Counted from the first letter of the stretch, positions 3,831-57,701 are shown. The stretch: DNA of 64,000 nucleotides from an uncultured bacterium (GCA_937139605.1 CAKZQG010000039.1:17530-81529); one strand, 5' to 3'. Numbers and translations are program-made. The notes: generated by a model not told the origin, from the letters alone.

Positions 3831-5372
3831 TTATAATATACATATAATAGAATAAACATCATTTAAATTAATTTCTTTTAAACTCTTTAAACAGTCTTGA
3901 TATTTTTTTGGTGAATATAATTTATTAACTAAAGTTTTATATTCGTTATGTTTAGTTATATATCCTAAGATAACTGCATCGTAGGTATTTTTTATATATT
4001 CTATTAAGTCAAAAAGATTATTAACATCTTTTAGTTCATTTTGAGAAAAATTTTTAATATAGAATTCTTTAATTTTATATCCAACAGGGGTAAAGAAGTT
4101 AGAAATAAATAAAGAAGCAGAAGGTAAAAATATTTTCATATTTATTATTTTAGAAATAAGTTCATGTTGTCTAATAACATTAATTTCGTCAATATTAACA
4201 ATATCTGTATTAGTAATAGCTATAACTTTAGTTTTAGAGAATTCTGTTCCTAAAGTTCTTACAATATTAGAAGCAATAAAGGCTGTATTGATATCTTGGT
4301 GATACTCATCAGATTCTCTTTCATCAGGTAATATAAATATTTTTTCTATTCTATCTTTTAGTTTTTCTAGTTCATTATAAAAAGAAGTTTCTAAGATATT
4401 TTTATTAACAATAAAAAAAAATTCTGTAAGATAATGTAAATGTTCTTTTTTTAAAGTACTATTCATCATTTCATTTAAATTATCTACATCATCAGTAGAT
4501 AACTTAGATATTAATACTATTTTTGTGTTTATATTAGTACTATCTATAATAGCATAATATATTGTTTTTATGTATTCTTTAATAATAGAAGTAATCATTT
4601 CTTTATCATAGTTTATAATAATAACTAAGTTTCCATAGGATGGGATATTATCAAAAATATTTAAATTTTTATATCGTTCCATAATAAAAGATGCAATAGT
4701 ACCGATAATACTAGCAAATAATATTCCATTAGCTATTATTAAGAATATACCTATTAAATATTTTTGGGTTTTATCGGGTAATCCTTCTGGAATTTCACCA
4801 GTAAAAACTACATAAAATGCCCATTTCAAAGCTTCAAAAATATCTATTTCTAATATCTGGTTAAGCATAACAGAGCCTACTAAAATTACTAAAACTGTTA
4901 TAACAAAAATCTTTATTATATTTCTTAATAGAAAGTTAATTTCTTTTTCAATAATTCCAAATATTTTAAATATAGTAATTAATCTAATAATTCTAATTAA
5001 TCTAAGTAAAGCTAAATCATGTAAATAAACTGCTTCATTAAATCCATAAAAAAAATGTAAAACAATATAATCAACAGGGATCCATCCAAGTAAAGCTACT
5101 ATATCCCAAAAATATACTTTAAAAAACTTTCTAAAATCCCCTATTGACCAATACCTTATTATCAACTCAATTGAAAATAAACTAAAAAATATAATATCTA
5201 TAAAAAAGTAAATAACCGGATAACTTTTAAAAAAATTAAAATAAAAATCTCTTGTAGTTAAAAATAAAACATACACTATAGAAACTATTGTCAATACATT
5301 ATAAAAAATATTAAATTTTTTATTGTAATTTAAATTAATTAATAGATTAGTTAATTTATCTTTTAGGTTCAT
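3831..5372 (-). CDS. Voltage-sensor-type ion channel with RCK-like domain and atypical pore
   Basis: The 513-residue protein has the layout of a six-helix channel: four hydrophobic segments (about 22-40, 53-73, 84-108 and an S4-like helix at 120-139 with R124, R127, R130 and K136 at three-residue spacing), a re-entrant pore stretch near 182-200, and an S6-like helix at 203-230. A soluble part from about 240 begins like an NAD-binding RCK/TrkA-N fold (NLVIIINYD). The potassium selectivity filter TVGYG is absent; the pore reads VVFTGEIPEGL instead. The ion carried is therefore uncertain. The gene is 11 bases downstream of an acetyltransferase-like gene, so the two are likely cotranscribed. Fold call confident, selectivity not. 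Confidence 0.75.
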   Translation of the reverse strand: MNLKDKLTNLLINLNYNKKFNIFYNVLTIVSIVYVLFLTTRDFYFNFFKSYPVIYFFIDIIFFSLFSIELIIRYWSIGDFRKFFKVYFWDIVALLGWIPVDYIVLHFFYGFNEAVYLHDLALLRLIRIIRLITIFKIFGIIEKEINFLLRNIIKIFVITVLVILVGSVMLNQILEIDIFEALKWAFYVVFTGEIPEGLPDKTQKYLIGIFLIIANGILFASIIGTIASFIMERYKNLNIFDNIPSYGNLVIIINYDKEMITSIIKEYIKTIYYAIIDSTNINTKIVLISKLSTDDVDNLNEMMNSTLKKEHLHYLTEFFFIVNKNILETSFYNELEKLKDRIEKIFILPDERESDEYHQDINTAFIASNIVRTLGTEFSKTKVIAITNTDIVNIDEINVIRQHELISKIINMKIFLPSASLFISNFFTPVGYKIKEFYIKNFSQNELKDVNNLFDLIEYIKNTYDAVILGYITKHNEYKTLVNKLYSPKKYQDCLKSLKEINLNDVYSIICIL

Positions 5373-5383
5373 TTTTAATTGTA

Positions 5384-6718
5384 TTAAATTTTGAAAGTTT
5401 CTATTAAATCTATTTCTTCTTGGAGTTTATTAACTAAAAATGAATATATTACTTTCAGGTAATCTTTAAATATATCGGGGACAATCATGTTTTTGAGATT
5501 AGGGAAATTAAATGGGTAGAAAAATATAGCAATATCTTTTCTAGTATTTTTTTCTTTTAGCATTATAGGAAAATATGCACAAGGTACAAATCCAATATCT
5601 ATTAATATATTATGATAGAAATAATTTTCAGCTTTAGAAACGACTTCTAAGTATCTTCCATCCAATTTATCAATAATAAATGGGATATTATAAAATAGAT
5701 TATAAATTTTTTCTATATCGTTATCTACTTCTAACCCCATTATCGCGCAATGTTTATCAATATAATTAAAATGTAAAAAAACAGAACCTATAGGAGTTTT
5801 TATTTTAAAATTCGGTTTATGAAATGGCATGAATTTAAATCTCAAGGTATTTAATTTCTCTTTATATTCTCTTTCTACGTTATCTACAATTATGTTTATA
5901 TTATCTAAGATAGTTGGTTTAATATTTATTTTTTGGTTTAATATTTTCTGATATTTTTCTTCTAATGTTAGAATATCTTGGATATTTTTTTTAATATTTT
6001 TAATATTTTTTATGTTATAGTGGAGTAATCTATGTAAGTATTTTTGGAGTACTTGATATATTTCATTAACGAGGATATTCATTTTAGTTATTTTTTCTCT
6101 TTTAATTAGTCCTTTATGTGTTAGGTAGATAAATAGAGCGTGGTTTTCATAAGTTAGTACTCTCCTAACGTTGGGGAATATTCCAGCAGGAATGAAGTTA
6201 TTTTTTAATAAAACTTTTTGGGGACTTATTGTTAAAGTTCTTGCTAAAGCGTATATTACTTCTGATTTAATAATGGAATAATTAAATGCTAAATAAAATA
6301 TTATTTCAAATAGTTTATTATTTCTGTATTTTTCTTTAACTACAGCAGCTAACGCTTTTGATAATGAATTCTTTTTATCAACTCTAAATAAAATTGAAGC
6401 ACATACTTTATTTTCATTATCATATACTAACAACCATAAATTATCTTTATTTAATAGAATTTCAGTTAATAGTTCTTCATCAGTTACTTCAGGTAATGAG
6501 TAATTATATCCATAAATTTCTTTATATAGATTTTTTATATCATTTTTGTTATTTATATTGGCTTTTTTAATTTTGAAATTAAGGATTAAAGTGCTTATAT
6601 CAAATTCAAAAAATTCTTTTAGATCTCCAATTAGTATATCTTTATTAGAATTTAGTTCTTTAAAAATCTGATTAATATGATTTATATTTTTATTATAAGT
6701 ATTAGAACCTAAATTCAT
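5384..6718 (-). CDS. GNAT-like acetyltransferase protein, possibly internally duplicated
   Basis: A 444-residue soluble protein I cannot assign to a named enzyme. The N-terminal half resembles a GNAT acetyltransferase: YGYNYSLPE near residue 70, a strand with VCASILFRV near 105, and a closing NNFIPAGIFPNV segment near 175. The C-terminal half seems to repeat the closing element (DIGFVPCAYFPI near 380), suggesting a duplicated GNAT-like fold joined by a helical region rich in Ile, Lys and Asn. The gene is just upstream of the ion-channel gene on the same strand and diverges from the DPA operon. Substrate and function are unknown; the fold call rests on pattern only. Confidence 0.5.
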   Translation of the reverse strand: MNLGSNTYNKNINHINQIFKELNSNKDILIGDLKEFFEFDISTLILNFKIKKANINNKNDIKNLYKEIYGYNYSLPEVTDEELLTEILLNKDNLWLLVYDNENKVCASILFRVDKKNSLSKALAAVVKEKYRNNKLFEIIFYLAFNYSIIKSEVIYALARTLTISPQKVLLKNNFIPAGIFPNVRRVLTYENHALFIYLTHKGLIKREKITKMNILVNEIYQVLQKYLHRLLHYNIKNIKNIKKNIQDILTLEEKYQKILNQKINIKPTILDNINIIVDNVEREYKEKLNTLRFKFMPFHKPNFKIKTPIGSVFLHFNYIDKHCAIMGLEVDNDIEKIYNLFYNIPFIIDKLDGRYLEVVSKAENYFYHNILIDIGFVPCAYFPIMLKEKNTRKDIAIFFYPFNFPNLKNMIVPDIFKDYLKVIYSFLVNKLQEEIDLIETFKI

Positions 6719-6853
6719 AAATTAAATGGTTATAGTAATTTATTTTTATTCTATTATTTATTTTAACAAAACCCAAAAAAACTCCTATTAAATATAACTA
6801 ATTAAAATAGGGAAAAATAGAAAAAAATATAATATTTTAATAAAGGAGTAAAT

Positions 6854-7729
6854 ATGGGTTTTAGTGATTATGTAAAACTATTAAGGATTCATCAATGGGT
6901 AAAAAATTTATTAATTTTTGCTCCATTTTTTTTCTCCTTTAATTACAAAACAGATATTCTTTTAAATTTAATAATAGTTTTTTTTATTTTTAGTATTACT
7001 GCAAGTGCTATTTATGTAATAAATGATATTATAGATTTAGAGTACGATAAAAATCATCCCGATAAAAAAAATAGGCCCTTACCTTCAAACAAAATCACTA
7101 TAAATAATGCCGTTATTCTAATTTTTGTTTTATTATCTTTATCATTATCCATTTCTTTTTTAATTAATAAATCTTTATTTTATCTAGTATTAATTTATAT
7201 AATATTAAATCTAATATATAGCTTATTTATAAAGAAAATAATTATCTGGGATGTAACATTTTTAGCTTCAAACTATATTATAAGGTTGTTAATAGGATCT
7301 ATTCCATTTAATATAGAGTTATCTAATTGGATAATAATAAATACATTTTTATTAGCTATTTTAATTGGTTTTACTAAGAGAAGAGAAGATCTCATTTTAT
7401 TTTATAAAGGTAAAAATACTAGAAAAAATATAGAAAATTATTCCCTAGAGTTAATTAATATATCTATAGCAATAGTAGGCGGATTAGCTATAGTAGCTTA
7501 CCTTATGTACACAACGAACTTAGAAATAATAAAAAAGCATGGGGAATATTTATATCTTACTTTTATTTTTGTTTTAGTAGGAGTAATAAGGTACCTTCAA
7601 TTAGTATTTAATAAAGAAACAAGTGGTGATCCCGCAAAAATCTTTTTAAAAGATAATTTTTTAAAATTAACTATTTTACTATGGTTAATTTCATTTTATG
7701 CAATCCATTACCTAAGTAACAAATTTTAG
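6854..7729 (+). CDS. Decaprenyl-phosphate phosphoribosyltransferase-like (UbiA family)
   Basis: A 291-residue polytopic UbiA-superfamily prenyltransferase. The first catalytic Asp-rich motif lies at residues 57-80: NDIIDLEYDKNHP followed by KNRPLPSNKI. The start MGFSDYVKLLRIHQWVKN is typical of the DPPR-synthase branch (mycobacterial Rv3806c type). That enzyme moves 5-phosphoribose from PRPP to decaprenyl phosphate, the first committed step to decaprenylphosphoryl-arabinose. The assignment is strengthened by context: DprE1-like, DprE2-like and HAD phosphatase genes follow within 60 bases each on the same strand. AAAGGAG lies just before the start. It could use another polyprenyl phosphate, but the pathway context makes DPPR synthase the best call. 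Confidence 0.9.
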   Translation: MGFSDYVKLLRIHQWVKNLLIFAPFFFSFNYKTDILLNLIIVFFIFSITASAIYVINDIIDLEYDKNHPDKKNRPLPSNKITINNAVILIFVLLSLSLSISFLINKSLFYLVLIYIILNLIYSLFIKKIIIWDVTFLASNYIIRLLIGSIPFNIELSNWIIINTFLLAILIGFTKRREDLILFYKGKNTRKNIENYSLELINISIAIVGGLAIVAYLMYTTNLEIIKKHGEYLYLTFIFVLVGVIRYLQLVFNKETSGDPAKIFLKDNFLKLTILLWLISFYAIHYLSNKF

Positions 7730-7774
7730 AAATAATTAAAGCTTTAACATTATTGTCTATGTTTATTATAGTCT

Positions 7775-9067
7775 ATGTTTAAAGAAAAAGAAATCTCAAC
7801 TTGGATATTAAATCCTAAAATAAAAAGTACAGTATATTATCCTGATAATTTCCTGACCATAAAAGAATTAAATAACAATTTAAAAAATTTTTTAGCAATA
7901 GGTAAATTAAGGAGCTATTCAGATTCAATATACTCTACTGTTATTAAAACTACAAAATATAATTACATATTGGACTATAACAAAGAAGAAGGATATATTG
8001 AATGTACCTCAGGAATAACCTTAAAAGAAATAATAGATTTTGTAATAAAAGATAATTATTTTTTATTAATTACTCCAGGTACAAAATATATAACCTTAGG
8101 TGGAGCAATATCAAATGATGTACATGGTAAAAACCATCATATCCATGGTTCATTTAATGAATCTATCATTAATTTACAAGTTTTATTACCTAATAATGAA
8201 ATAGTTACAATAAATGATAAAAATAATGAAATTTATAGAGCTATTGTAGGTGGAATTGGATTAATAGGAATTATTTTAAAATCTAAAATAAAGTTATTAA
8301 AAATTCCTAGCCCATTTATATTACAAAGAAATACAAAAACCCATACCTTCTATCAATTAATTGATAATATCTATAAGTATAATAATTGTACTTACAGCGT
8401 AGTATGGTTGGATTTATTTAACTTTAACGGAAATAAATTAAATGCAATACTCCAAACTGGAGAATTTATAAATCAAAACTATACAAATATAAATCATATT
8501 TTAAAAAGAATTAATAAAAAAATAACTATTCCCCATTTTTTAAGAATAGAAAATCTAATAGTTAAAATTTTTAATTATTTTTATTATTTATTTACTTTTG
8601 AAGAGAAAATAGTTGATTTTAATACTTTTTTTTATCCTTTAGATTTCATTTATAATTGGAATACTTTGTATAAACCTACTGGATTTTTACAATATCAATT
8701 AATAGTTAATTCAGAAGAAGCTTTAGAAAAAATAATATACACAATATATAAATCTAACATAAAGCCATATTTATCTATTTTAAAATTACATAAAGAAGGT
8801 AATAATAATTTTTTGTCATTTCCCATAAAAGGTTTTAGTTTAGCTTTAGATTTTAAATTACAAGCAGGATTATATGACTTATTGGATAAATTAGATAATA
8901 TAGTTATAAAAAACAATGGTAGAATATATTTAGCTAAAGATAACAGGATGGATAAGGATAAATTTGAAAAAATGTATTCAAAAGTAAATGAATTCAAAAA
9001 AATCAGAAAAGAATTAGGAGCTAATAAAAAATATATCTCTTTACAATCTATAAGATTAAGTCTATAA
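7775..9067 (+). CDS. dprE1: DprE1-like decaprenylphosphoryl-ribose 2'-oxidase (FAD)
   Basis: A 430-residue FAD-dependent oxidase of the vanillyl-alcohol-oxidase fold. DprE1 oxidises the 2'-OH of decaprenylphosphoryl-ribose, the first half of the epimerisation to arabinose. The FAD-binding stretch GGAISNDVHGKNHH (109-122) is almost the mycobacterial motif, and the C-terminal YLAKDNR (385-391) supplies the equivalent of catalytic Lys418 as K388. The position matching mycobacterial Cys387, the residue trapped by benzothiazinones, is Ala357 here (GFSLALDF, 353-360). No clear ribosome site precedes the ATG, which sits 45 bases after the UbiA-type gene. A sugar-lactone oxidase is the alternative, made unlikely by the motifs and neighbours. 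Confidence 0.92.
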   Translation: MFKEKEISTWILNPKIKSTVYYPDNFLTIKELNNNLKNFLAIGKLRSYSDSIYSTVIKTTKYNYILDYNKEEGYIECTSGITLKEIIDFVIKDNYFLLITPGTKYITLGGAISNDVHGKNHHIHGSFNESIINLQVLLPNNEIVTINDKNNEIYRAIVGGIGLIGIILKSKIKLLKIPSPFILQRNTKTHTFYQLIDNIYKYNNCTYSVVWLDLFNFNGNKLNAILQTGEFINQNYTNINHILKRINKKITIPHFLRIENLIVKIFNYFYYLFTFEEKIVDFNTFFYPLDFIYNWNTLYKPTGFLQYQLIVNSEEALEKIIYTIYKSNIKPYLSILKLHKEGNNNFLSFPIKGFSLALDFKLQAGLYDLLDKLDNIVIKNNGRIYLAKDNRMDKDKFEKMYSKVNEFKKIRKELGANKKYISLQSIRLSL

Positions 9068-9105
9068 AAACTATATAAAATAAAAATTATAAAATATTTG
9101 ATTAT

Positions 9106-9846
9106 ATGGGTAATAAGTATTTATTAATAATAGGTGGTAATAGCGATATAGCTAAAGAATGTGCAATTGAGTTTGCTAAACACAATTTTAATCTAATATT
9201 AACAACAAGAAATAAAAACAAATTAGAAGAATTTTCTAAAGATCTTAAAAATCTCTATGATATAGACATAATTATAGAAGAATTAGATATACTTGATTTT
9301 TCATATCATTCAGAATTCTGGAATAAAGTTAAAAATTATAACATAGAGGTAGTTTTAATATCTGTTGGGTATTTAGGGAACCAAGAGTTAGCAGAACAAA
9401 ATACCGAAGAAAGTTTAAAAATAATAAATACTAATTATACAGCTTTAGTAAATTTGATAAATATAATCTCAAATGACTTAAAGGAAAAAAGAAACAAAAC
9501 CATCATAGGAATAAGCTCAGTAGCAGGTGATAGAGGCAGAAAAAGTAATTATATTTATGGAAGTGCAAAAGCAGGTTTCTCTTGCTACTTAGATGGATTA
9601 AGACACAAGCTATATAACTATAATATTCACGTTATTACAGTTAAACCAGGTCTAGTTTATACTAAAATGACAAGTCATTTAAAACTTCCGAAATTTCTAA
9701 CTACTACTCCTAACAAAGTTGCTAAAGATATCTATAAAGCATATTTAAAAAAAATAAATACATTATATACTCCTTTTTTCTGGAAAATAATAATTAATAT
9801 TATAAAATTAATTCCTGAAAATATTTTTAAAAAAATTAATTTATGA
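9106..9846 (+). CDS. dprE2: DprE2-like decaprenylphosphoryl-2-keto-pentose reductase (SDR)
   Basis: A 246-residue classical short-chain dehydrogenase. The nucleotide-binding turn is GGNSDIAKE (10-18). The catalytic set is Ser137/Ser138 (GISSVAGDRGR) with Tyr151 and Lys155 in YGSAK, and VKPGLVYTKM follows near 165-175. GISSVAGDRGR and the C-terminal hydrophobic helix are typical of DprE2, which reduces the 2-keto intermediate made by DprE1 to decaprenylphosphoryl-arabinose using NAD(P)H. It lies 38 bases after dprE1 and 38 bases before the HAD gene, all on one strand. It ends with a TGA stop, showing that TGA is used as a stop in this genome. No obvious ribosome site precedes it. Confidence 0.92.
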   Translation: MGNKYLLIIGGNSDIAKECAIEFAKHNFNLILTTRNKNKLEEFSKDLKNLYDIDIIIEELDILDFSYHSEFWNKVKNYNIEVVLISVGYLGNQELAEQNTEESLKIINTNYTALVNLINIISNDLKEKRNKTIIGISSVAGDRGRKSNYIYGSAKAGFSCYLDGLRHKLYNYNIHVITVKPGLVYTKMTSHLKLPKFLTTTPNKVAKDIYKAYLKKINTLYTPFFWKIIINIIKLIPENIFKKINL

Positions 9847-9884
9847 TATATATACTAATTTATAATATAAATTTATAATATACT

Positions 9885-10475
9885 ATGGGTAAAAAAATAG
9901 TGTTTTTTGACTTTGATAATACAATAACTAAGAAAGATACTCTACCAATTTTTTTAAGATATTTATATCCTTTTCATATTTTTATTTTTAAATCTTTGTT
10001 ATTTTTTCCTTTTTATGTACTATTTAAGCTAAAAATAATATCTAATGATTTAGCCAAAAAAATATTAACAAATATTTTTTTTAGGAATTTAAGTTTAGAA
10101 ATTTTTAATAAAAAAGTAGAAGAATTTAATTTAAAAATATTACCTAAGTTAATAAAAGATAAAGCAATAGAATTAATAGATAGATATAATAAAGAGGGCT
10201 ATATAATAGCAGTAGTTACAGGTAACTTTGAGGAAATATTAAAGCTATGGGCTAAAAACAATAAAGTATATTTAATAGGTACAAAATTAGAAATAAGAAA
10301 CAATAAATTTACGGGAAATTTAGCTACTGAAAACTGTACTTCTTACCAAAAAGTTATTAGAATCAAGGAAATTTTTAATCTTGAAGAATTTGAGGAGATT
10401 ATAGCATATGGTGATAGTGAATCTGATTTACCAATGCTTAATTTAGCTAAAAAAAAAGTTTATAAAAAACTCTAA
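9885..10475 (+). CDS. HAD-IB phosphatase, candidate DPPR phosphatase
   Basis: A 196-residue haloacid-dehalogenase phosphatase of the SerB-like IB subfamily. Motif I is DFDNTIT with D9 and D11, motif II VVTGN (near 107), motif III the lysine in SYQKVI, and motif IV YGDSESDLPML near the C-terminus. A hydrophobic cap segment (about 25-48) could put it near the membrane. Making DPA needs removal of the 5'-phosphate from decaprenylphosphoryl-phosphoribose, and mycobacteria use a PAP2-type protein there. As last gene of this operon the HAD enzyme is the natural candidate. HAD-UbiA fusions in other bacteria support such a pairing. Its stop overlaps the stop of the convergent YfhO gene by four bases. 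The role is inferred. Confidence 0.82.
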   Translation: MGKKIVFFDFDNTITKKDTLPIFLRYLYPFHIFIFKSLLFFPFYVLFKLKIISNDLAKKILTNIFFRNLSLEIFNKKVEEFNLKILPKLIKDKAIELIDRYNKEGYIIAVVTGNFEEILKLWAKNNKVYLIGTKLEIRNNKFTGNLATENCTSYQKVIRIKEIFNLEEFEEIIAYGDSESDLPMLNLAKKKVYKKL

Positions 10476-13400
10476 TTTTTATTTTTCTTATAATATTTTT
10501 CCTTAGCTAAAATAATAAACAATATTAGTAAATAGAAAGCGATAGTAACAAAAGGTAGAAAGAAAAATTTGGCATACCAAGGCTCATATCTTAAAATAAC
10601 TTCATATTCTCCTTTTGGTACTATAACTCCCATAACCATTCCATTAACTTTTAAAACAGGTACTTCAGTATTGTTTATGTAAGCTTTCCAGTATTTATAA
10701 TATCCATGATTTATAACTATAAAGCTGTCTTTTAGAGTTTTAACTTTAAAACTTATTTCATTATATTTTTTAAATATATTTTCATCCATTATTTTAGCAT
10801 TTCCAAAATTTAATTTATTTATATTTTCTTGATTTAAGTCTTTATAAATATTTTTATAGGTATAATTTAAATTAGATAAATTAGAATATTTTTTAATTTT
10901 TGCTATTTCAGTTTCTTCTATTTTGGCTTCTTTTAAAATATTAAAATCTAATAAATATAGTTTTTCTCTAAAATCTAATAATCCTTTAACTGTGTTTATT
11001 TTATTAACACTTCTTATTATATTTACGACATTATTATTATAAAAAATAGAGGTTACTCTAAGTATTTTTTTCTGAGAATCTTTACTTTTAATTATTTTCC
11101 TCAAATATTTATGTTCGACAAATTGATAAGAATAGATATTATCATTTTTAAATGAAGGAGCTAAGAAAGGAGGATATAATACTAATTTAATATTTTTCAA
11201 ATAAATTTTTTGATCTTCATTAGTTAGTAATTTTATTTTAAAATCAATAAGCTTTGAATTACTGATATCAAAAACATCAAAATAGCTAAAAGGTATCATA
11301 ACCTTTATATATTCACTATCCTTTTCTTTTAAAGCTTTTAAGTAATTTATATTTACATTACCTAAATAAACTTTAAATTTACTATTATCATAAAGTAATA
11401 TATTTATATTTTTCTTTTTATCTAAAATAAGATTATTGTAATAATTATTCCAATAGTATCTAAATAAATCCAATTTAGGTAATTTAATATCTAAAATTAG
11501 TATTCCAATTATATCAGGGCTATTATAATTTTTTATTTTAAACTCTATTGGATTTTTACTATCAAAAAATATTTCTTTTTGAGAATATAAAATATCATAA
11601 GTTTTTATTAATTTTTTATAAATATTATAATTTACATTATAAATATATTTAAAATTATTGTATAAATTATCTAAAACTTCATTATTTTTATATTCGTTTT
11701 TTGTACAAAATAAATCAATCCTTTTGATAGAATAAAAAGATAAGGGGAGATTAAAATAAAAAGGGAATAAATTATTAAAAATTAATTCTTTCCTATCAAA
11801 TGTAAGTATAGGGTCATAAGAATTAAAAAACATTTCCCTTGTAATAATAGAAATATAATTAACCATAGTTGTTCCGTACATAATTTGGTTATCATTGTAG
11901 TTTAATAATAAAACAGCATTATAGTTTTTGTTATTATTATTTTTAGTATCATTATAAATAAAATAAAAAAGCTTTTTAAATTCTTCATAATTATCTTCAT
12001 TTTTAAACTTATAAATTCCATAAAAATAATATCTACCTTCTAATATAAAAGCTATTATAAAAAAGAGGATAAAAAACAAGAAAAATCTTTTAGCTACTTT
12101 ATTATAAGCTATAAATAAAATTAAAAATATAATTAAAAAAAACAAAGGATAAAAAGTAGTAAATTTTAAAGAAATAATATATGGTATTAAATCAATAGAA
12201 TTATAATACCAAAAATAAATTAGAGCTATAATAATAAATAAAACAAAAGATATTATAAAAAATTTTATAAAAATTAATATATTTTCTTTTATTTTTGATC
12301 TTATAAATAAAATTTCTTTAAGAAATACTCCAATAGAAGTAGCTAAAAGAAACTCAAATATAAACAGTTGTCTTACTGGAGATTTTATATCTAAATAAAA
12401 AGGAATCAAAGTAAAAATATAATGGAATATTGTATTTTTCCCCAAAGACAACAAAAGCGAAAGAAAACCAATAATCATTACAAAACCAATTTTTATAAAC
12501 AGTAATCTATTTTCTTTTATTCTATTATAATATTTATAAATAAAAAATAATAAAGATGGTATAGCTAAAATTGATAAATAATGTACAATTTCAAAGTTAA
12601 CTGTCTTTTCAAAAGTATAAAATAATAATTTATAATAATAATTATTATAAATAAATGGTAGAAAATAATTTATTAATAATTCAAAACTCAAAGAACCGTA
12701 ATTAAAAATAATACTTTTAATATACTCTCTATCAGTTAATTGAGAATATTCTTTAAATATCATATATTGCAACCAAAAGATAGTTAAACTAATCCCTAAA
12801 GCTAAAAACCAATAAAATAATACTTTACCAAAATAATCCTTCTTTATAAACAATAATATTAAAATATATATAAAAGAGTAGATAAAAGTATAAACTATAA
12901 TATTGGGATGTCCTATTAAGACTATTATACCAAAAGATATTCCATAAACTAAAATATTTTTTAAAAAATCTTCTTGCCTAGTTATATTTTTATATATAAT
13001 TAAATGTAAATTATACAAAGACAAAAAGAAATAAGGGATAGAATTATCAAAAGTTAAAAAATCAACATATCCTATACTTGAACCACTAAACGTATATAAA
13101 ATACTTACAATAAAAGAAATTATCCTATTTTTTAATAAAAAATTAATATAATAATATATAACAATTTCTAAAATATATAGATGTAATAATATTCCCAAAT
13201 TATATGCTAAAAAAGGATTAAATTTATATAAAGGTAAAAATATATAGTTTAAGGGATAAAATACACTACTTTGTAAAACTTCTATAAAAGGGTATCCTAA
13301 ATGAGTATAATGCCACCATAATGGCAAATAACCATTACTTATAGTTTCATATAAAAAATACCTATAAGGGAAATAGGTATTTAATCCATCTACTGAATAT

Positions 13401-13519
13401 ATTAATACATTATTAAATATATAAGGATAAAAAAAAATAAAAGGAAATATTAGCATTAAAAAAATATAAAAATAATTACTTCTCAAAAGGACAAAATTCT
13501 CTTTTCTTTTGAAAAACAT
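10472..13519 (-). CDS. YfhO-family large membrane protein (GT-C-like)
   Basis: A 1015-residue protein with about a dozen hydrophobic helices in the first half, a long soluble part (about 500-960) and a final transmembrane helix. The N-terminal YSVDGLNTYFPY with PLWWHYTHLGYPF, and the C-terminal NHGYYKYWKAYI with VPKGEYEVILRYEPW, are features of the YfhO family. Some members are implicated in glycosylating lipoteichoic acid or surface polymers from lipid-linked sugars. It converges on the DPA operon (stop codons overlap) and lies 14 bases downstream of a pilin gene on the same strand. A role in lipid-linked sugar transfer is plausible but not shown by sequence. Family call good, substrate unknown. 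Confidence 0.8.
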   Translation of the reverse strand: MFFKRKENFVLLRSNYFYIFLMLIFPFIFFYPYIFNNVLIYSVDGLNTYFPYRYFLYETISNGYLPLWWHYTHLGYPFIEVLQSSVFYPLNYIFLPLYKFNPFLAYNLGILLHLYILEIVIYYYINFLLKNRIISFIVSILYTFSGSSIGYVDFLTFDNSIPYFFLSLYNLHLIIYKNITRQEDFLKNILVYGISFGIIVLIGHPNIIVYTFIYSFIYILILLFIKKDYFGKVLFYWFLALGISLTIFWLQYMIFKEYSQLTDREYIKSIIFNYGSLSFELLINYFLPFIYNNYYYKLLFYTFEKTVNFEIVHYLSILAIPSLLFFIYKYYNRIKENRLLFIKIGFVMIIGFLSLLLSLGKNTIFHYIFTLIPFYLDIKSPVRQLFIFEFLLATSIGVFLKEILFIRSKIKENILIFIKFFIISFVLFIIIALIYFWYYNSIDLIPYIISLKFTTFYPLFFLIIFLILFIAYNKVAKRFFLFFILFFIIAFILEGRYYFYGIYKFKNEDNYEEFKKLFYFIYNDTKNNNNKNYNAVLLLNYNDNQIMYGTTMVNYISIITREMFFNSYDPILTFDRKELIFNNLFPFYFNLPLSFYSIKRIDLFCTKNEYKNNEVLDNLYNNFKYIYNVNYNIYKKLIKTYDILYSQKEIFFDSKNPIEFKIKNYNSPDIIGILILDIKLPKLDLFRYYWNNYYNNLILDKKKNINILLYDNSKFKVYLGNVNINYLKALKEKDSEYIKVMIPFSYFDVFDISNSKLIDFKIKLLTNEDQKIYLKNIKLVLYPPFLAPSFKNDNIYSYQFVEHKYLRKIIKSKDSQKKILRVTSIFYNNNVVNIIRSVNKINTVKGLLDFREKLYLLDFNILKEAKIEETEIAKIKKYSNLSNLNYTYKNIYKDLNQENINKLNFGNAKIMDENIFKKYNEISFKVKTLKDSFIVINHGYYKYWKAYINNTEVPVLKVNGMVMGVIVPKGEYEVILRYEPWYAKFFFLPFVTIAFYLLILFIILAKEKYYKKNKN

Positions 13520-13533
13520 TAGTAACTAAAAAA

Positions 13534-13965
13534 TTAATATTGAATTACTACTCCTTCTTGAGGAGAAAAAAATACTTTACTAACAGTTCCCCTATTATTT
13601 TTGTGCTTAATTGAAGTATTATAAGTAGGACAGTAAATAAAGTATGATGTTCCATTATTTGATGTTTTATATTCATAAAATTCTTTAGCAACTGGACATT
13701 TATAATCTTTATCTATATATACATTTAAAGGGTTACCAGTTAAGGTTATTACAAAGTCATTAGCAGGGTATTTTCCTTCATAATCATTAGAATACATTTC
13801 CACAACAGAAGCTATATTTTTTAAAATAGCTTGGCAGGCAGTTAATTTAGCAGCATTTCTTGCATTAACAAAATTAGGGATTAAAACTACTGCTAATATT
13901 GAAATAATTGCTATTACTATCATTAATTCTAACAAAGTAAATCCCCTTTTTTTATTAATTTTCAT
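13534..13965 (-). CDS. Type IV pilin-like protein (shorter of a tandem pair)
   Basis: A 143-residue prepilin with a short basic leader KINKKRG and the mature start FTLLELMIVIAIISIL, carrying Glu at position 5. This is the type IV pilin / GspG-like class III signal processed by prepilin peptidase. The mature part keeps LTAC, NDYEGKYP and two later cysteines (YKCPVAK and FIYCP) that probably form a disulfide. The same arrangement is seen in the pilin upstream at 14131-14619. A tRNA-Trp gene lies between the two. It may be a pilus subunit or a major pseudopilin of a secretion system; no assembly ATPase or peptidase is in the window to decide. Confidence 0.9.
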   Translation of the reverse strand: MKINKKRGFTLLELMIVIAIISILAVVLIPNFVNARNAAKLTACQAILKNIASVVEMYSNDYEGKYPANDFVITLTGNPLNVYIDKDYKCPVAKEFYEYKTSNNGTSYFIYCPTYNTSIKHKNNRGTVSKVFFSPQEGVVIQY

Positions 13966-14012
13966 AAGAAACCACCTCTATTGAAATAATAAGGAATAAA
14001 TAAATAAAAAAG

Positions 14013-14086
14013 CAGGGCGGAGAGGATTTGAACCCCCGACCAATGGATTTGGAGTCCACCGCTCTACCAAACTGAGCTACCGCCCT
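14013..14086 (-). tRNA. tRNA-Trp (CCA anticodon)
   Basis: Read on the minus strand, this 74-base stretch folds into a full cloverleaf. The acceptor stem AGGGCGG pairs with CCGCCCT, the D-stem GCTC with GAGC, the anticodon stem GTGGA with TCCAT around the loop CTCCAAA, and the T-arm GGGGG with CCTCT around TTCAAAT, with discriminator G. The anticodon is CCA, so it reads UGG only. CCA is not encoded. It lies between two pilin genes on the same strand, and a T-rich stretch follows its 3' end. Confidence 0.97.
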
Positions 14087-14130
14087 TCATATAAAACCAA
14101 ACAAATACTTTTTTAAAAATTATACTGATA

Positions 14131-14619
14131 CTATTGGAAAGCTCTTGTATTATTATCAATAATTCCTTGTTGTGAATCTAAATATGGGCCTCCTTTTTTA
14201 CCTCCTGCACTCGTATGAGCTGGTGTATTACCTATTGCTTTTGCTGCAGGACAATATATCCAATACATTACTGATTGACTTTGTTGAAATACGTAACTAC
14301 CTTTTTGAACAGGACATTTTGTTTTCTTTCCAATATAATTTGTAGCAAGTGTATTAATAGCATCAGTAGTACTACCTGGATCCGGAAGAGTTGCTGTAGT
14401 TCCACCTGTACCACCAGGATATAACCCATCATAGTCATTAGAGTATGTTTCCACTGCAGTTGATATATTTTTTAGGTTAGATTTACAAGCGGTTAGCCTT
14501 GATGCTTCTCTTGCTCTCATAAAGTTAGGAACTAATACTGCAGCTAATATTGCAATTATTGCTATAACGATCATCAGCTCAATTAAGGTAAAACCCTTTC
14601 TCTTTTTTCTCATATACAT
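14131..14619 (-). CDS. Type IV pilin-like protein (likely major pilin)
   Basis: A 162-residue prepilin: leader MYMRKKRKG, then FTLIELMIVIAIIAIL with Glu5, a textbook class III signal and N-terminal pilin helix. The mature globular part has LTACKSNL, NDYDGLYP, a Gly/Thr/Ser-rich stretch at about residues 68-88 (GGTGGTTATLPDPGSTTDA), and TKCPV with IYCPA cysteines matching the neighbouring pilin. The strong AGGAGGTG site just before the ATG and the canonical signal suggest it is well expressed. It lies about 100 bases downstream of the AftB-like arabinofuranosyltransferase gene on the same strand. The Ser/Thr-rich loop is a possible site of O-glycosylation, which is inference only. Confidence 0.92.
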   Translation of the reverse strand: MYMRKKRKGFTLIELMIVIAIIAILAAVLVPNFMRAREASRLTACKSNLKNISTAVETYSNDYDGLYPGGTGGTTATLPDPGSTTDAINTLATNYIGKKTKCPVQKGSYVFQQSQSVMYWIYCPAAKAIGNTPAHTSAGGKKGGPYLDSQQGIIDNNTRAFQ

Positions 14620-14716
14620 TCACCTCCTTTTCCTCATTATTTTTATACCCAATTTTTTCCAAAATGTACCTTTTTTAGATAACATTTCACACTCAATTTT
14701 TATTGACTTTTGTCAA

Positions 14717-16420
14717 TTATTTTTTATTTCTACAAAACTTCTTGTAGGCTTGATAAGTATCTTTTGGAATTCTAATTTTTGTAAATTTATAAGAATAAAC
14801 AATATTTAATAGAAACTTTTTTAGAGTTAATTTTCCATGAATAGAATCCAATAAATCTCTTAAAACTCCACATTCCATAGCTTTTTTAGCATATAACTCT
14901 TTTTCATTAGTTATTTGACCTATCCTAGCATTGATCCACTCTATGGATAAGGTTTTTTCATGACCAGGCCTTCCTCTTTTATCCACTTTAAAACGAGCCC
15001 CAATAGGATCAGCTATACACCAAAGATCAAAAATATAATACTCACTTCCCAATAAGAATCCGGAAATCCCTATATTCGACAAAGCAACATACTTATCTAC
15101 CTTTATTTTGTTTGTTATTTCATAATCAGTATATCTTTGTTTCAAATTAGCAGCTTGCAGATAAAGAAGAGAACCGCTATAATCTTCTAAAGTAACAGGA
15201 TTTTTTTTATGAGATAATCTAATATAAAACTCTCTTTCATTAGCTATACCATATTCATTGATCCCGTTATATGAAACTCTTAAATAATTAATGCAAATAA
15301 AACACCAGATTAACAATAAAAGTAGCAAGATTTTTTTTAAAATACTTTCATTAATAATGATAGGTGGTAATACAACAAAGAATGCAAAAACAGAAGGTAA
15401 TAAAAATCTAGCATGCATAAAATCCCCACCAATCAAGATAACATACAAAGCATATAATAAACTTGATATCAAAAAGGAAATAACAAAAAATATTAATTTA
15501 TAATCAATTTCATTAATTTCAAGAGTTTTAAATTTTTCATAGATAAAATAAAAAATTAAAATAAATCCTAAAATTATAGGGAAATACAAAAAATAAGTAT
15601 TAAAAAAATCAAGAAAATAAATTATACCTCTATCTATGTAAAAACTAAAAGCACTTTTAGCTATAGCAGTATTAGGTACAATACTTGCAAAATACCCCAT
15701 CCTAAAGATCTGATAAACTAAAGGCAAAAAAACAAATAAAAATAATTTAAATAAAATTAACTTAATATTTATATACATTTTTTCATATTTAAACAAAATA
15801 AATAAATAAAGCAAAATAAAATTAATAAAAAAAATCCCTAAATCAGGTCTTATTAAAACTCCCAAACTTACAATAATTGGTAATATATTATCCTTGTAAA
15901 GATTAGAAATATTATATATAAAGATCCAAAAAACAAAACTTAAGTAAAAAAATACTAATCCAGTTTCTAAACCTGATGTAACAAAATCCCAAAAAACAGA
16001 AATACTAACTATTAAATAGCTACCTATAATAAAGAAATAATTTTTATCATATAGCTCTTTTTTGTATAAAATTTCCAAATATCTTTTCCAAGCTAAATTA
16101 ATAAATAAAATACTTAAAGAAGAAAATAAGATTCCTAAAAAAACTGAGCTATACTCAATACTTTGAGTTATATAATAAAAAATAGTTAATAGAAAAAGCC
16201 ACAAAGGATGAGTATAAACTTCCACTCTTTCTCCAACATTAAAAACAGGACCATATCCATTTAAAAGATTATCAGCAACTCTAAAAGTAATAAAAGCATC
16301 ATCACAAACCCAACGATTAATATACCCTTTATACATTACAATAAAAACAGGAATTAATATAATAATCCACTGAAAAATCCATTTTTTGATTTCATTAAAT
16401 TTATTGTAATTATAATTCAC
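14717..16420 (-). CDS. AftB-like GT-C arabinofuranosyltransferase
   Basis: A 567-residue polytopic protein with the GT-C signature in the first extracytoplasmic loop: RWVCDDAFITFRVADNLLNG followed by PVFNVGERVEVYTHPLW (about 36-74), with the catalytic-type Asp pair D40/D41. A soluble C-terminal region contains IADPIGARF and GRPGHEK (about 465-485). This combination is seen in the mycobacterial AftB group, which moves D-arabinofuranose from decaprenylphosphoryl-arabinose onto acceptors outside the membrane. The DPA operon 4-10 kb away provides the expected donor. It is the gene immediately before the two pilins on the same strand. The acceptor is unknown; pilin, LPS-like glycan or a cell-wall polymer are all possible. 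Confidence 0.8.
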   Translation of the reverse strand: MNYNYNKFNEIKKWIFQWIIILIPVFIVMYKGYINRWVCDDAFITFRVADNLLNGYGPVFNVGERVEVYTHPLWLFLLTIFYYITQSIEYSSVFLGILFSSLSILFINLAWKRYLEILYKKELYDKNYFFIIGSYLIVSISVFWDFVTSGLETGLVFFYLSFVFWIFIYNISNLYKDNILPIIVSLGVLIRPDLGIFFINFILLYLFILFKYEKMYINIKLILFKLFLFVFLPLVYQIFRMGYFASIVPNTAIAKSAFSFYIDRGIIYFLDFFNTYFLYFPIILGFILIFYFIYEKFKTLEINEIDYKLIFFVISFLISSLLYALYVILIGGDFMHARFLLPSVFAFFVVLPPIIINESILKKILLLLLLIWCFICINYLRVSYNGINEYGIANEREFYIRLSHKKNPVTLEDYSGSLLYLQAANLKQRYTDYEITNKIKVDKYVALSNIGISGFLLGSEYYIFDLWCIADPIGARFKVDKRGRPGHEKTLSIEWINARIGQITNEKELYAKKAMECGVLRDLLDSIHGKLTLKKFLLNIVYSYKFTKIRIPKDTYQAYKKFCRNKK

Positions 16421-16478: not shown

Positions 16479-18389
16479 TTAATAATCTTTTCTAATAATT
16501 TTATTATAAACGGATTTAAAAAAGAAGAAAATAAGTAATCCGATTGTTAAGGCCCAAAAAGTTCTTAATAATCCAAATAATACAGGGGTATGTACATGTA
16601 AAAAAGTATCTACAATATCACTAAAAGTTATAAATGAAATTAAAAATAAAAAAGGAATCATCTTAAATTCATAATCTTTCAACTTATTTGTATATTTTAG
16701 ATAAACAAAATATAATAAAAATAATAGAGCAGGGTTACCTATTAGAAACTCTTTAAACCTTGGCCGAGCTATTAAAATATTTTCCAAAATATTCCTTAAT
16801 TCAGTTTCAAACGGAAAAGTAAATCCCATATTCCCACTCCTTAATAAATATACCCCAATAACCCCAAAAATAAATAATATAACAACTATATCTATAACCC
16901 TAACTCTCTTTATTAAAAATAACCTTATTTCCTTATAATTAAATACTAAAAAGATACCTAAAAATATAGGCAAAATAAGCAACAATTTTATTCCACTAAC
17001 TTTATTAATAGCTAAATATAAATTTTGATTAAATAAAACAGCCTGAACAAAAATCCCCAAAATAATAACCCATAAAATTAATTTAAAATAAAATAATACT
17101 ATATTACTACTAAACTCTCTTAAAAATATTTCTCTATAAATAAAAACTACAATTAAAAAGGAAACAAAAAATAAAACCAAAACCTCAAAAATAAACTCTA
17201 CTTTAAATACAAAACTAAGAATAAACAAAATAAATAAAAACAAATTAAACATAAAAAATAAACTCCCATTCAAATTATACCCATTTTCAACTAAAAAATT
17301 ATAATAATAACTAGCAGAAGCAAACGAATAAACAATAAATAAAATTAAAGCAACAAGAGAAACTATTTTTATAAAAGTTAAATATTTATTTATTTCTTCT
17401 AAATTATAGTCTTTATTTATAGTATTAGATAGCTTTAATATATTATCATGAGTTTTTTTTAAAATATTAATATTATCATAGAAATTAAGGTTATCAGAGA
17501 ATCTAAAAAGAATCAATCTACAATTCCTTTCATTAAAAGCTAAATCAATAGAATTCAATATTGCATTAGCACTTTTATCTTTAACAACATAGGTACTAAA
17601 CAATTTTATTTTATTATTAAAAGGTAAATCATAAGCAAACTCTATAGAACCCCTTTGAATATTCTTAGAACTATAATATTCCACAAAACCGAAAATTAAA
17701 TTCTTATTGATAAATAATTCTTTTAATTTTTTAATATAAAAAGGATAACCAGCTACAAAAGGTCCATTAAAGACTATTATATCCCCAGATTTTATATAAT
17801 TTAGTTTTTCAAGATCATAAAAATATGAACTAACCCGCCAAATTATTTTTTTTCCTAAACTTCTATATTTCTCTACTTCTTTTAAAGGGAACACTTCCAA
17901 ATTAGCTACATAATCATAATCTACATCTACTTTTATAACATTCCCTACTTTGCTAACTTTATTAGGAAATATATTAGCTAAGATACTATAAACAATATTT
18001 AAATAATCTAAATCATTGGTATATATAAAAGTTTTATTAATATCAGGATTAAGGTTAGTTTTAAAAGAATTAGAATCTAAAGTAGTTATCCAAAACTTAG
18101 GATTAATTTTTAACTCATTTAGAGAAACTACATCAACTATATTATAATTTTTTAGTTCTTTTAAGCTAAGCGTTTTAAAAGAAATAGCATTTACATTATT
18201 TAAAATTTTTTTTTCAAAATAATCTTTATAATTATAAACATAATTAGAAGAAAAATTAAGATAATCTAAATAATCAACAGCTAAATACTTAGGATTATAA
18301 GTTTTATCTAATAATATTCTAAGAATTAAAAATAAAAAAGATACAAAAAAAACAATCCATCTCATTATTAATAAAAAATTCTTTATCAA
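16479..18389 (-). CDS. DUF5693-family membrane protein
   Basis: A 636-residue protein with one N-terminal hydrophobic segment, a soluble extracytoplasmic region (about 40-340) and about ten transmembrane helices after it. The C-terminal IARPRFKEFLIGNPALL and DTFLHVHTPVLFGLLRT segments are characteristic of the DUF5693 family. That family has no established biochemical function and often lies near envelope-polysaccharide genes. Here it is 58 bases upstream of the AftB-like gene on the same strand, so it may belong to that transcription unit. No catalytic motif can be named; function unknown. Confidence 0.75.
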   Translation of the reverse strand: MIKNFLLIMRWIVFFVSFLFLILRILLDKTYNPKYLAVDYLDYLNFSSNYVYNYKDYFEKKILNNVNAISFKTLSLKELKNYNIVDVVSLNELKINPKFWITTLDSNSFKTNLNPDINKTFIYTNDLDYLNIVYSILANIFPNKVSKVGNVIKVDVDYDYVANLEVFPLKEVEKYRSLGKKIIWRVSSYFYDLEKLNYIKSGDIIVFNGPFVAGYPFYIKKLKELFINKNLIFGFVEYYSSKNIQRGSIEFAYDLPFNNKIKLFSTYVVKDKSANAILNSIDLAFNERNCRLILFRFSDNLNFYDNINILKKTHDNILKLSNTINKDYNLEEINKYLTFIKIVSLVALILFIVYSFASASYYYNFLVENGYNLNGSLFFMFNLFLFILFILSFVFKVEFIFEVLVLFFVSFLIVVFIYREIFLREFSSNIVLFYFKLILWVIILGIFVQAVLFNQNLYLAINKVSGIKLLLILPIFLGIFLVFNYKEIRLFLIKRVRVIDIVVILFIFGVIGVYLLRSGNMGFTFPFETELRNILENILIARPRFKEFLIGNPALLFLLYFVYLKYTNKLKDYEFKMIPFLFLISFITFSDIVDTFLHVHTPVLFGLLRTFWALTIGLLIFFFFKSVYNKIIRKDY

Positions 18390-18490: not shown

Positions 18491-18610
18491 TTATTTACCG
18501 CATTTACATTCTTTTCCACTTTCACATCCGCAATTACAACCACTTCCACAATTACAATTTTTCTCCTTCTTATTTGATTTACTTTCTTTCATTTGCTTAT
18601 CTTCTTTCAT
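18491..18610 (-). CDS. Small Cys-rich metallothionein-like peptide
   Basis: A 39-residue frame with a basic, acidic-spotted N-terminal half (MKEDKQMKESKSNKKEK) and a C-terminal half packed with CxC and CxxxC pairs: NCNCGSGCNCGC, then CKCGK, eight cysteines in 22 residues. Such density suggests a soft-metal (Cu, Zn, Cd) thiolate cluster, as in metallothioneins, but there is no clear homology to a named family. Its ATG overlaps the TGA stop of the thioredoxin-fold frame (ATGA at 18607-18610), a sign of translational coupling. The terminator follows 44 bases later. An SEC-C-like motif is less likely because no His or paired CC is present. Confidence 0.6.
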   Translation of the reverse strand: MKEDKQMKESKSNKKEKNCNCGSGCNCGCESGKECKCGK

Positions 18611-19260
18611 TTCTTTTTATTCATATCCATAGAGCATTTATCTTTAGCTTTAGTTAGGTTACAATGATCACACCAACCTACTAATTGTTTTAAATGTCCT
18701 TGATCTAATTTATTTGTTGAACCCATTATAGTATTATTAACTATGTAATAAACAGTAGGATATTCTTTAACCCCTAAGGAAGAAACTAAATTAGCAGTAG
18801 GATACAAAGCCATACTTAATTTATTTTGTTTAACTAAATTAGTTAGCTCTGTTTTTTCAGTTTCTTTCCCATTAACAAAAACAACAAATTGAACATTATT
18901 ATATCCTTTTTTACTAAGCCATTCTTGGAAATTCTTTATTTGAACATAGTCTCTAACAGTTTCTTTATTTAAGAAAAATACTAATGCTTCATTAGATAAA
19001 CTTCAGTTATAATTTTTATTATCAACCAAGTTTAAAAAACTTTGATTAAACCAATTAGAAACATTTAAATTAGCAGCAGCTACTACAGTAGATTCATTAG
19101 AAGTATTCTTAGTTTGACAACATTGACAGTTTTCTGTTTTATTAGAAGAGTGCTTAGATTCCTTATCATGAGCCATAACACTTATGTTAATAAAAGCAAA
19201 TATAAATAATATAGCAATGATTATAATACTTAAGATTCTATAGTCTTTTATTTTTTTCAT
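18607..19260 (-). pseudogene. Secreted thioredoxin-fold-like protein interrupted by in-frame TGA
   Basis: The frame starts at 19260 with a strong AGGAGGTG site, a signal-peptide-like hydrophobic stretch (about 7-30, ending SVMAH) and a Cys-rich NCQCCQ segment. It is cut by TGA at 19003-19005 after DNKNYN. The same frame then stays open to the TGA at 18607-18609. The continuation has a thioredoxin-like pattern, ALVFFLNKE, then FVVFVNGK, then GVKEYPTVYYIVNN (with the cis-Pro-like YPT), and a late GWCDHCN, but no CxxC at the usual N-terminal position. Read through, the product is about 216 residues. A nonsense mutation (for example from TGG), a consensus error or recoding are all possible. Natural function unknown; metal or redox handling is suggested by its Cys-rich neighbour. 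Confidence 0.7.
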
Positions 19261-19456: not shown

Positions 19457-20533
19457 TTATTTTTCAAGGATATATATTAAAATAAATCCGACAAACAGCA
19501 TAATAAAATCGGCTAAAAATGCAGCCAAAAATGGGGGTAATATATTATTTTTACCTAACGCTACAAAAAATGAAAAACTGCTATAATAAAAGAAAATCAA
19601 AAACACACTTAAAAATAAGCCAATAAACCTTCCTTTTCTAGCAAACATAACAGCTAACGGCAAAGACAATATAATTAAAATTATATTAGATAATGGCAAA
19701 CTAAATTTCAAATATAACTGGGTTCTTAAATAATTATCTTTTAATCCAATTTTTTCCATACTTTCTACCTTTTCTTTAAGTTCAGAGTATTTCATCTCCC
19801 ATGGGGTTTTTAGTTCTTCCGTAATTTTATCTACTGATATATCCAAAGGAATTATAAGTTTTTCAAATTTAGTTTGAGATTTAACAAAACCTTTATAAGA
19901 AATATCTGTAATAAATCCATCATATAGAGTTATTTTAAAATCTTTAGCAAGGCCTTTAGTAGCTGTTATTATCCTTGGGTATATCCCAACAGTATTATCT
20001 ATTAGGGTTATATATTTCATTTCCCCTTTGGCTTTATCTATTTCTTTAATGATAATTATTTTACCATCAGGTAATTTAAAAAATACGTTTGATTGTAAAA
20101 AAGCTAAGGGAGCTTTTATTATTTTTTCTTTAACAATTTTTTCAGAAGCACTCATAGATAAAGGAACTATGGTTTCATTTAAAATAAATGAAACAATACT
20201 CAAAAAAAAACCTATAATCAAAAACGGTAAAATTATTAAATAAAATCTTATTCCTAAGATCCTTAAAGAAGTTATCTCAAAATTTGATTCCAATTTAGTA
20301 ATAGAGTTTATAATAGCAAATAAATTAGCTACAGGTATGGCTATAATCAAAAAGGCAGGAATCCTATAAGCTATTATTTTAAAAAAGCTAATTAAATCTA
20401 ATCCTTTAGATATAACTTGATCTACTAAAATAAATAGCATTTCTGATATCATAAATATAATAAACCCAAATAATCCAATAAAAAAAGGTAAAATCATTTC
20501 CTTAGATAAATAAAAAAATAAAGTCTTTCTCAT
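19457..20533 (-). CDS. LptF/LptG-family permease
   Basis: A 358-residue protein of the YjgP/YjgQ (LptF/LptG) family: three N-terminal helices, a periplasmic beta-jellyroll-like domain (about 120-265) and three C-terminal helices. Typical elements are the N-terminal MRKTLFFYLSKEMILPF, the AIPVANLFAIINSI helix and the late LKFSLPLSNIILIILSLPLA segment. With LptB these proteins extract lipopolysaccharide from the inner membrane and pass it to the LptC-A-D bridge. It implies an outer membrane with LPS or a similar glycolipid. No other Lpt gene is in the window; whether it is LptF or LptG cannot be decided. Confidence 0.9.
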   Translation of the reverse strand: MRKTLFFYLSKEMILPFFIGLFGFIIFMISEMLFILVDQVISKGLDLISFFKIIAYRIPAFLIIAIPVANLFAIINSITKLESNFEITSLRILGIRFYLIILPFLIIGFFLSIVSFILNETIVPLSMSASEKIVKEKIIKAPLAFLQSNVFFKLPDGKIIIIKEIDKAKGEMKYITLIDNTVGIYPRIITATKGLAKDFKITLYDGFITDISYKGFVKSQTKFEKLIIPLDISVDKITEELKTPWEMKYSELKEKVESMEKIGLKDNYLRTQLYLKFSLPLSNIILIILSLPLAVMFARKGRFIGLFLSVFLIFFYYSSFSFFVALGKNNILPPFLAAFLADFIMLFVGFILIYILEK

Positions 20534-25780: not shown

Positions 25781-25830
25781 AAAAACAAACTTAACACACT
25801 TTTGTTTTAACTAATTTATTTTCAATGAAT

Positions 25831-27024: not shown

Positions 27025-27025
27025 A

Positions 27026-28887: not shown

Positions 28888-28940
28888 AAATCAACTCCTT
28901 TCTTATTTATCCACAAAAATATTTTACTTATAAAAGAATT

Positions 28941-30200
<1,260 letters not shown>

Positions 30201-30210
30201 TGATACTTAA

Positions 30211-31395: not shown

Positions 31396-31408
31396 TATCT
31401 TAAATATT

Positions 31409-32566: not shown

Positions 32567-32579
32567 AACAACAAAATCT

Positions 32580-54045: not shown

Positions 54046-54120
54046 TCACCTCTTTACTATTCTACTACCTCTATCTTATTTTTTAAATTAAATCCCATAT
54101 AACAATAAGTTTAGAATTAA

Positions 54121-55182: not shown

Positions 55183-55220
55183 AATTCCACTTCCTAAAGT
55201 ATATTTTTATTCATAAGAAT

Positions 55221-56243: not shown

Positions 56244-56304
56244 AATCTTTAATTTAATTTTTATTTTTATTTTTACTTTTATTTTTATTAATTCCTTAAT
56301 TTTA

Positions 56305-57066: not shown

Positions 57067-57116
57067 ACAAATCCCCCTTAATTATTATTAGCTTATTATT
57101 ATAATTAATTTTCATG

Positions 57117-57653: not shown

Positions 57654-57701
57654 TCCTTAATCAACCCCTTTTTATTATTAATTTTTAATTATTATTAATT
57701 T

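Follow-up and report, generated by a model that had tools for sequence, protein, structure and literature searches.

An AftB-like GT-C glycosyltransferase encoded beside two pilin genes in an uncultured bacterium: a possible route to D-arabinofuranose on type IV pilins

Modification of pilins with D-arabinofuranose is already known from Pseudomonas (PMC11841053, PMC12369383), and gene cassettes for the lipid-linked sugar donor are known as well. Group IV pilins of P. aeruginosa bear D-arabinofuranose added by TfpW, a GT-C enzyme encoded next to the pilin gene (PMC11841053), and in P. paraeruginosa PA7 the donor genes (PSPA7_6245-6251) lie far from the pilA-tfpW pair (PSPA7_5161-5160) (PMC12369383). 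The mycobacterial terminal beta-(1->2)-arabinofuranosyltransferase AftB (9dlf/9dlh) has donor-contact and catalytic residues at D62, T91, E172, R221, T274 and R372 (PMC12041299). The three-component pentofuranose systems of Citrobacter youngae O1/O2, with their GT136 enzymes, consist of a polyprenyl-phosphoribose synthase, a HAD-type phosphatase and a periplasmic GT-C (PMC11127046). YfhO proteins are GT-C glycosyltransferases of lipoteichoic acid or wall teichoic acid (PMC8035078), and the Pgf proteins PgfM1 and PgfM2 act in the modification of surface adhesins of Streptococcus mutans (PMC5856776). Here we analyse a stretch of 64,000 nucleotides from an uncultured bacterium (GCA_937139605.1 CAKZQG010000039.1:17530-81529, or G000:C39:17530-81529; hereafter the window), part of a source genome of 1.88 Mb in 45 contigs, in which a gene for an AftB-type GT-C arabinofuranosyltransferase lies directly upstream of two type IV pilin genes and close to a cassette for its putative lipid donor.

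The GT-C protein (14717-16420, minus strand, 567 residues, GTG start) matches no Pfam family. Against the NCBIfam AftB model NF041481 it scores 185 bits (E 1.6e-54), far below the equivalog cut-off of 1050 bits, and for this reason we call it AftB-like and not AftB. Its sole sequence match in the PDB is AftB itself (9dlf/9dlh, E 8.5e-52), over nearly the full length and at ~24% identity. The AlphaFold model (predicted local distance difference test score, pLDDT, 92.6) superposes on AftB 9dlf with a query template-modelling (TM) score of 0.83 (Foldseek E 1e-23) and includes a periplasmic cap domain as in AftB; the next PDB structures are other GT-C enzymes with far lower scores. The catalytic Asp of the DD motif is present, and D41, T70, E152, R191, T251 and R338 align to the six AftB residues given above, so that all six mapped positions are kept. 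On the acceptor side, F448, Y449, D541, R560 and H563 of AftB correspond to F398, Y399, D465, R484 and H487, while T524 has become Ser. As judged from the alignment, these kept residues would suit a sugar acceptor at least as well as Ser/Thr. Equivalents of D541 and H563 occur in 81 of 81 close homologues, however, and since the acceptor-side residues are so widespread in the family they show an intact enzyme and leave the acceptor undecided.

The gene is the only AftB-like gene in the genome, and none of the six relatives from the same order, with genomes 71-90% complete, carries one; the order was sampled by seven genomes from three genera, the remaining genomes from the searches for relatives being akin only at domain level. 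When 386 genomes were surveyed with the AftB model, the window protein ranked second with 145 bits, after one true AftB (1174 bits), and all others reached at most 69 bits. In a tree it forms a long isolated branch amid sequences from Actinomycetota, Chloroflexota and Myxococcota. No GT-C homologues were found on viral contigs, and plasmids yielded distant ones only. Separately, a hypothetical protein of Leptospira interrogans, encoded beside hisE on a 350-kb replicon (L283:5911-7842), is 58% identical to the enzyme across 57 residues of the DD-motif region.

The donor would be polyprenyl-phospho-D-arabinofuranose, which is made from phosphoribosyl pyrophosphate (PRPP) by the route used in mycobacteria and likewise in pentofuranose systems (PMC11127046). 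By the family assignments of its products, a plus-strand cassette at 6854-10475 would be complete for this route bar a flippase. It encodes a UbiA-family polyprenyl-phosphate phosphoribosyltransferase resembling decaprenylphosphoryl-phosphoribose (DPPR) synthase (6854-7729; PF01040; NF008977 223 bits, cut-off 234), a DprE1-like polyprenylphosphoryl-ribose oxidase (7775-9067; NF053785 E 3.8e-85, 287 bits, cut-off 500), a DprE2-like SDR reductase (9106-9846; NF005489 above cut-off; NF053786 E 1.2e-48, 166 bits, cut-off 250) and an HAD-IB phosphatase (9885-10475; TIGR01490 above cut-off), which is a candidate polyprenyl-phospho-phosphoribose phosphatase. The cassette converges on the minus-strand genes, and the 3' ends of the HAD gene and of a YfhO-like gene described below overlap by four bases. 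A GtrA-family flippase was not found anywhere in the genome, and the genome's one MATE protein is encoded on a different contig. The DprE1 gene is single-copy in the genome and is missing from all six relatives (those genomes being 71-90% complete). Such cassettes are common: with a threshold of E 1e-20, DprE1 is matched in 42 of 386 genomes, and locus L235 has the identical four genes in identical order. Synthesis of an arabinan polymer was considered and rejected, a search of the genome for GT87 (AftC-type) enzymes having come up empty, with the AftA and Emb families outside that search. The preliminary description of this DNA had placed an AftB-like gene directly upstream of two pilin genes and a donor pathway nearby, and both statements stand; for the enzyme family and the donor pathway taken together our confidence is high.

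Prepilin signatures score above cut-off in both pilins, which rank first and second for N_methyl in a genome with 20 prepilin places. Pilin 1 (14131-14619, minus strand, 162 residues; PF07963 E 3.6e-11), the probable major pilin, starts 97 bp past the stop codon of the GT-C gene, and pilin 2 (13534-13965, minus strand, 143 residues; PF07963 E 8.9e-10) follows it. Orthologues of pilin 1 occur in the related genomes G001, G002 and G006, and the pilin pair is kept in G001 and G002. Between the pilin genes lies a tRNA-Trp gene (CCA; 14012-14086, minus strand; found by ARAGORN and by Rfam RF00005 at 67.9 bits), which in G001 instead lies between LptF/G and DUF5693 (L045:7130-7205), a position within the diverging block described below or at its margin. 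In G006, on a contig whose end cuts the upstream gene, the pilin 1 orthologue is found directly 3' of the C-terminal part of a multi-pass membrane protein (L047:5092-5640, 5720-6877).

A comparison with the congeneric genome G001 gives the link between enzyme and pilins its main context. Contig L045 of that genome is collinear with the window through GT4, LptF/G, DUF5693, pilin 1, pilin 2, YfhO, GNAT, UppP and a pilin-like gene. Two things are missing there and have left no remnants: the AftB-like gene, which in the window separates DUF5693 from pilin 1, and the cassette, which separates YfhO from GNAT. These two extra segments of the window flank the pilin-YfhO block on either side. Outside the block, orthologues of the two genomes share 73-92% identity, compared with 58% for DUF5693, 60% for pilin 1, 62% for pilin 2 and 40% for YfhO. 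In pilin 1 the divergence lies in the exposed domain (30-43% identity from alignment column 75 on, vs. 87-100% in the N-terminal helix); the YfhO-like protein diverges most in its middle part (22-32%). Because the window holds the sole AftB-like gene and the sole DprE1 gene of the genome, its gene content goes beyond chance. Chance and mis-assembly were ruled out by the collinear flanks and by a composition like that of the window (GC content 23.8% for the AftB-like gene and 21-24% for the cassette, vs. 22.4% for the window). As to recent foreign insertion, a scan for flanking repeats returned just AT-rich approximate matches, and no integrase was found among the nearby open reading frames.

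The YfhO-like gene (10472-13519, minus strand) encodes a large membrane protein of 1015 residues and starts 14 bp past the stop codon of pilin 2. The protein has no direct match to any Pfam or NCBIfam YfhO or Pgf model and does not reach the PF09586 gathering score; a paralogue within the order comes close, at 26.7 bits with 28.5 needed. A profile for the family of the window protein finds L048:5995-8379 (E 7e-16), which is a PF09586 YfhO protein (4e-21) resembling streptococcal PgfM1/PgfM2. L048 is also the best homologue locus for the GT-C in the genome collection, and there the YfhO gene adjoins the AftB-like gene. The same family profile finds no PDB chain, and the AlphaFold model of the window protein is of too low quality for a structure search (pLDDT 53). 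On this indirect profile link we regard it as a candidate second glycosyltransferase. The gene is next to the two pilin genes in G000, G001 and G002, i.e. in three of three genomes that have the pair, and the linkage persists in G002 (contig L046) even though that genome belongs to another genus. Since the order there is rearranged, with YfhO ahead of the pilins, we argue that the linkage itself is kept. No orthologous pilin pair turned up in G003, G004 or G005, whose YfhO-like genes sit in a different conserved context.

These observations suggest the following scheme. The UbiA protein would load polyprenyl phosphate with ribose-5-phosphate taken from PRPP, the HAD enzyme would remove the phosphate from polyprenyl-phospho-phosphoribose, and DprE1 and DprE2 would then invert C2, presumably yielding polyprenyl-phospho-D-arabinofuranose. 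A flippase would turn this donor outward, and the AftB-type enzyme would transfer D-arabinofuranose on the periplasmic side of the inner membrane. The acceptor may be a pilin-bound glycan, placed by the YfhO-like protein and capped by the AftB-type enzyme. We see the pilins as the most likely final acceptor, more probably by way of such a cap than directly on Ser/Thr; this reading, with capping preferred, we regard as about as likely as not, and direct transfer would add a small further share. The preference for capping comes mainly from the YfhO/Pgf resemblance and the linkage of that gene to the pilins. The full picture, in which an AftB-family enzyme caps a YfhO-placed pilin glycan in a diderm far from Actinomycetota and Pseudomonas by a two-enzyme route undescribed in the literature found, is put forward tentatively.

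Several observations weigh against the pilins as acceptor. AftB itself works on polysaccharide (PMC12041299), and so do the characterized three-component O-antigen systems (PMC11127046). The gene for LptF/G (19457-20533, minus strand), the first in order of transcription among the minus-strand genes described here, is 3 kb off, and a polysaccharide cluster with GT4, GT2, epimerase and methyltransferase genes (24950-33269) is 8.5 kb off. Because an LptF/LptG protein is encoded, the cell is best seen as a diderm with lipopolysaccharide (LPS), to which this protein points. The region upstream of pilin 1 is alike in G000, G001 and G002, with or without the AftB-like gene. Since it is kept in this way, and since the GT-C stop codon abuts it, pilin 1 probably has its own promoter, so that GT-C and pilin need not form a shared operon. 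An FNR/CRP-type palindrome, TTGACAAAAGTCAA, assigned to no strand, occupies 14703-14716 of this region, immediately past the GT-C stop codon, and recurs, as TTGAYNNNNRTCAA, 5' of pilin 1 in all three genomes (window 14703-14716, L045:9427-9440, L046:10244-10257). Two such palindromes were found in the window with 0.28 expected by chance, and the conservation of this one suggests that a regulator of the FNR/CRP family may control the pilins. The Thr-rich loop past the N-terminal helix of pilin 1, which the preliminary description had pointed out, is real (9 Thr and 1 Ser per 35 residues) but is weak evidence. Its enrichment is modest when set against the four-protein comparison with relatives lacking the enzyme (7/31, 3/32 and 5/21), and the share of Ser/Thr in the periplasmic part is 20% here compared with 18, 16 and 24% there. 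Finally, the glycosyltransferase role of the YfhO-like protein is putative, and its structural model is poor.

The wider survey points the same way, and the refuting test set out in the preliminary description thereby goes in part against the link. A prepilin gene was present within ~9 kb in none of 120 AftB-homologue loci (80 closest homologue loci and 40 from the broad survey, many on contigs shorter than 9 kb), as judged with a pattern-based prepilin detector that recovered the pilins in three control loci (L045-L047); the genome scan for GT-C homologues used a three-sequence alignment. It follows that AftB-like enzymes are not pilin enzymes in general, and a GT-C/pilin pair as a family-wide trait was ruled out. 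For this particular locus the survey carries less weight, since the 80 closest loci come mainly from Actinomycetota (73 rows on the tree), and it holds no close orthologues of the window GT-C. Actinomycetota are mostly without such pili. Starting from the donor side, a prepilin-like open reading frame is nearby in 2 of 33 DprE1 loci (L227 and L259). A random gene would lie beside a prepilin gene ~2% of the time, a rough estimate from the 20 prepilin places and an assumed ~1,900 genes. The proposal that enzyme and pilins belong together is thus partly supported, by real but circumstantial evidence: it is favoured by the absence of the gene together with the cassette from the collinear congeneric locus, by the way the two bracket a block that diverges fast, and by the linkage of a YfhO-like gene to the pilin pair in three genomes; the 120 loci do not speak for it. 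In locus L259 (G166; 5475-6155 and 7825-10109) the prepilin gene lies ~2 kb from DprE2/DprE1 with a possible glycosyltransferase between them, which may be an independent link between pentofuranose and pilins.

The main rival to a pilin acceptor is that the AftB-type enzyme decorates LPS or a surface polysaccharide with D-arabinofuranose, much as the periplasmic systems for pentofuranose side chains do, and that its pilin neighbourhood is incidental. The habits of the characterized relatives, the nearby LptF/G gene and polysaccharide cluster, and AftB homologues that do not lie beside pilins in the surveyed genomes all favour this explanation, which we consider possible though below an even chance. 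It accounts less well for the position of gene and cassette, which surround the pilin/YfhO block and lie outside the polysaccharide cluster, the near end of which occurs as well in the congeneric genome, where gene and cassette are both lacking. A direct, TfpW-like O-arabinosylation of Ser/Thr in pilin 1, with no need for the YfhO-like protein, would have the Pseudomonas precedent (PMC11841053) and the composition of the pilin loop in its favour; we consider it unlikely, given a second candidate glycosyltransferase linked to the pilins and the retention of AftB acceptor-side residues suited to a furanosyl acceptor, common as these are in the family. Another surface protein, such as flagellin or another pilus component, could also be the acceptor, or the enzyme could have a role in motility like that implied by the RefSeq name ZomB (flagellar motor control protein) given to two plasmid-borne homologues. 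The genome does have a flagellar-rod-like gene, judged from sequence (L278:2314-2787), besides its many prepilin places. ZomB is, however, an annotation transfer, the homologue on a Rhodococcus plasmid lies beside decaprenyl-phosphate phosphoribosyltransferase and PAP2 genes in an arabinan setting, and no flagellar genes turned up around the window GT-C, so that we consider such an acceptor or role very improbable.

Set beside the described systems, the enzyme resembles AftB in near-full-length sequence, fold, DD-motif Asp and donor contacts, and differs in belonging to a diderm non-actinobacterium in which no arabinogalactan setting was seen and GT87 is absent. With Pseudomonas TfpW and the RGP80 donor genes the locus shares a GT-C gene beside a pilin gene and a pathway to polyprenyl-phospho-D-arabinofuranose; this likeness is one of gene position and donor pathway, with pilin 1 as the presumed major pilin. 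Here, in contrast, the donor genes flank the pilin block, and there is an additional YfhO-like protein. The C. youngae-type systems have in common with the locus the polyprenyl-phosphoribose synthase, the HAD-type phosphatase and the periplasmic GT-C, and their arabinofuranose versions share the DprE1/E2-type epimerization as well, whereas the GT-C here is AftB-like and not a demonstrated GT136, the cassette is without a MATE flippase and the location is not an O-antigen locus. The YfhO/PgfM enzymes of teichoic acid and S. mutans Pgf systems have a large membrane protein of this type in common with the window, by way of the indirect profile link, and differ in that the window protein matches none of the corresponding models and sits with pilins.

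The tRNA-Trp between the pilin genes, the upstream region of pilin 1, the convergent cassette and the YfhO-like gene all go beyond the preliminary description. Among other features, a DUF5693 membrane protein (16479-18389, minus strand; PF18949 E 2.5e-63) is encoded upstream of the AftB-like gene and co-oriented with it, within the fast-diverging block. At 18607-19260 (minus strand) a small exported Cys-containing protein has an in-frame TGA after 85 residues, followed by ~130 open residues, for which a pseudogene, a sequencing error and selenocysteine are candidate explanations. An Amj protein (alternate to MurJ; 1452-2282; PF10997 E 1.7e-67) is encoded near UppP, and G001 has Amj too; a K-channel-like gene (3831-5372) has no counterpart at the G001 locus. 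Further away, RAMP-type proteins and a Cas10-like open reading frame of 892 residues (53393-60380) look, from their translations, like a type III clustered regularly interspaced short palindromic repeats (CRISPR) effector cluster.

If correct, the scheme of a YfhO-placed pilin glycan capped by the AftB-type enzyme would be new in three respects: an AftB-type enzyme in a pilin role, a donor cassette linked to pilins and a YfhO-like partner. Were the pilins the target, D-arabinose would be put on pili by way of an AftB-type enzyme in an organism only distantly related to Pseudomonas. Pilin glycans are reported to protect against pilus-specific phages (PMC11841053), and such protection could then be a reason why the locus diverges fast. 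For the families concerned, it would mean that AftB-type enzymes have an acceptor beyond mycobacterial arabinan, and that YfhO-like proteins may serve as partners in pilin glycosylation.

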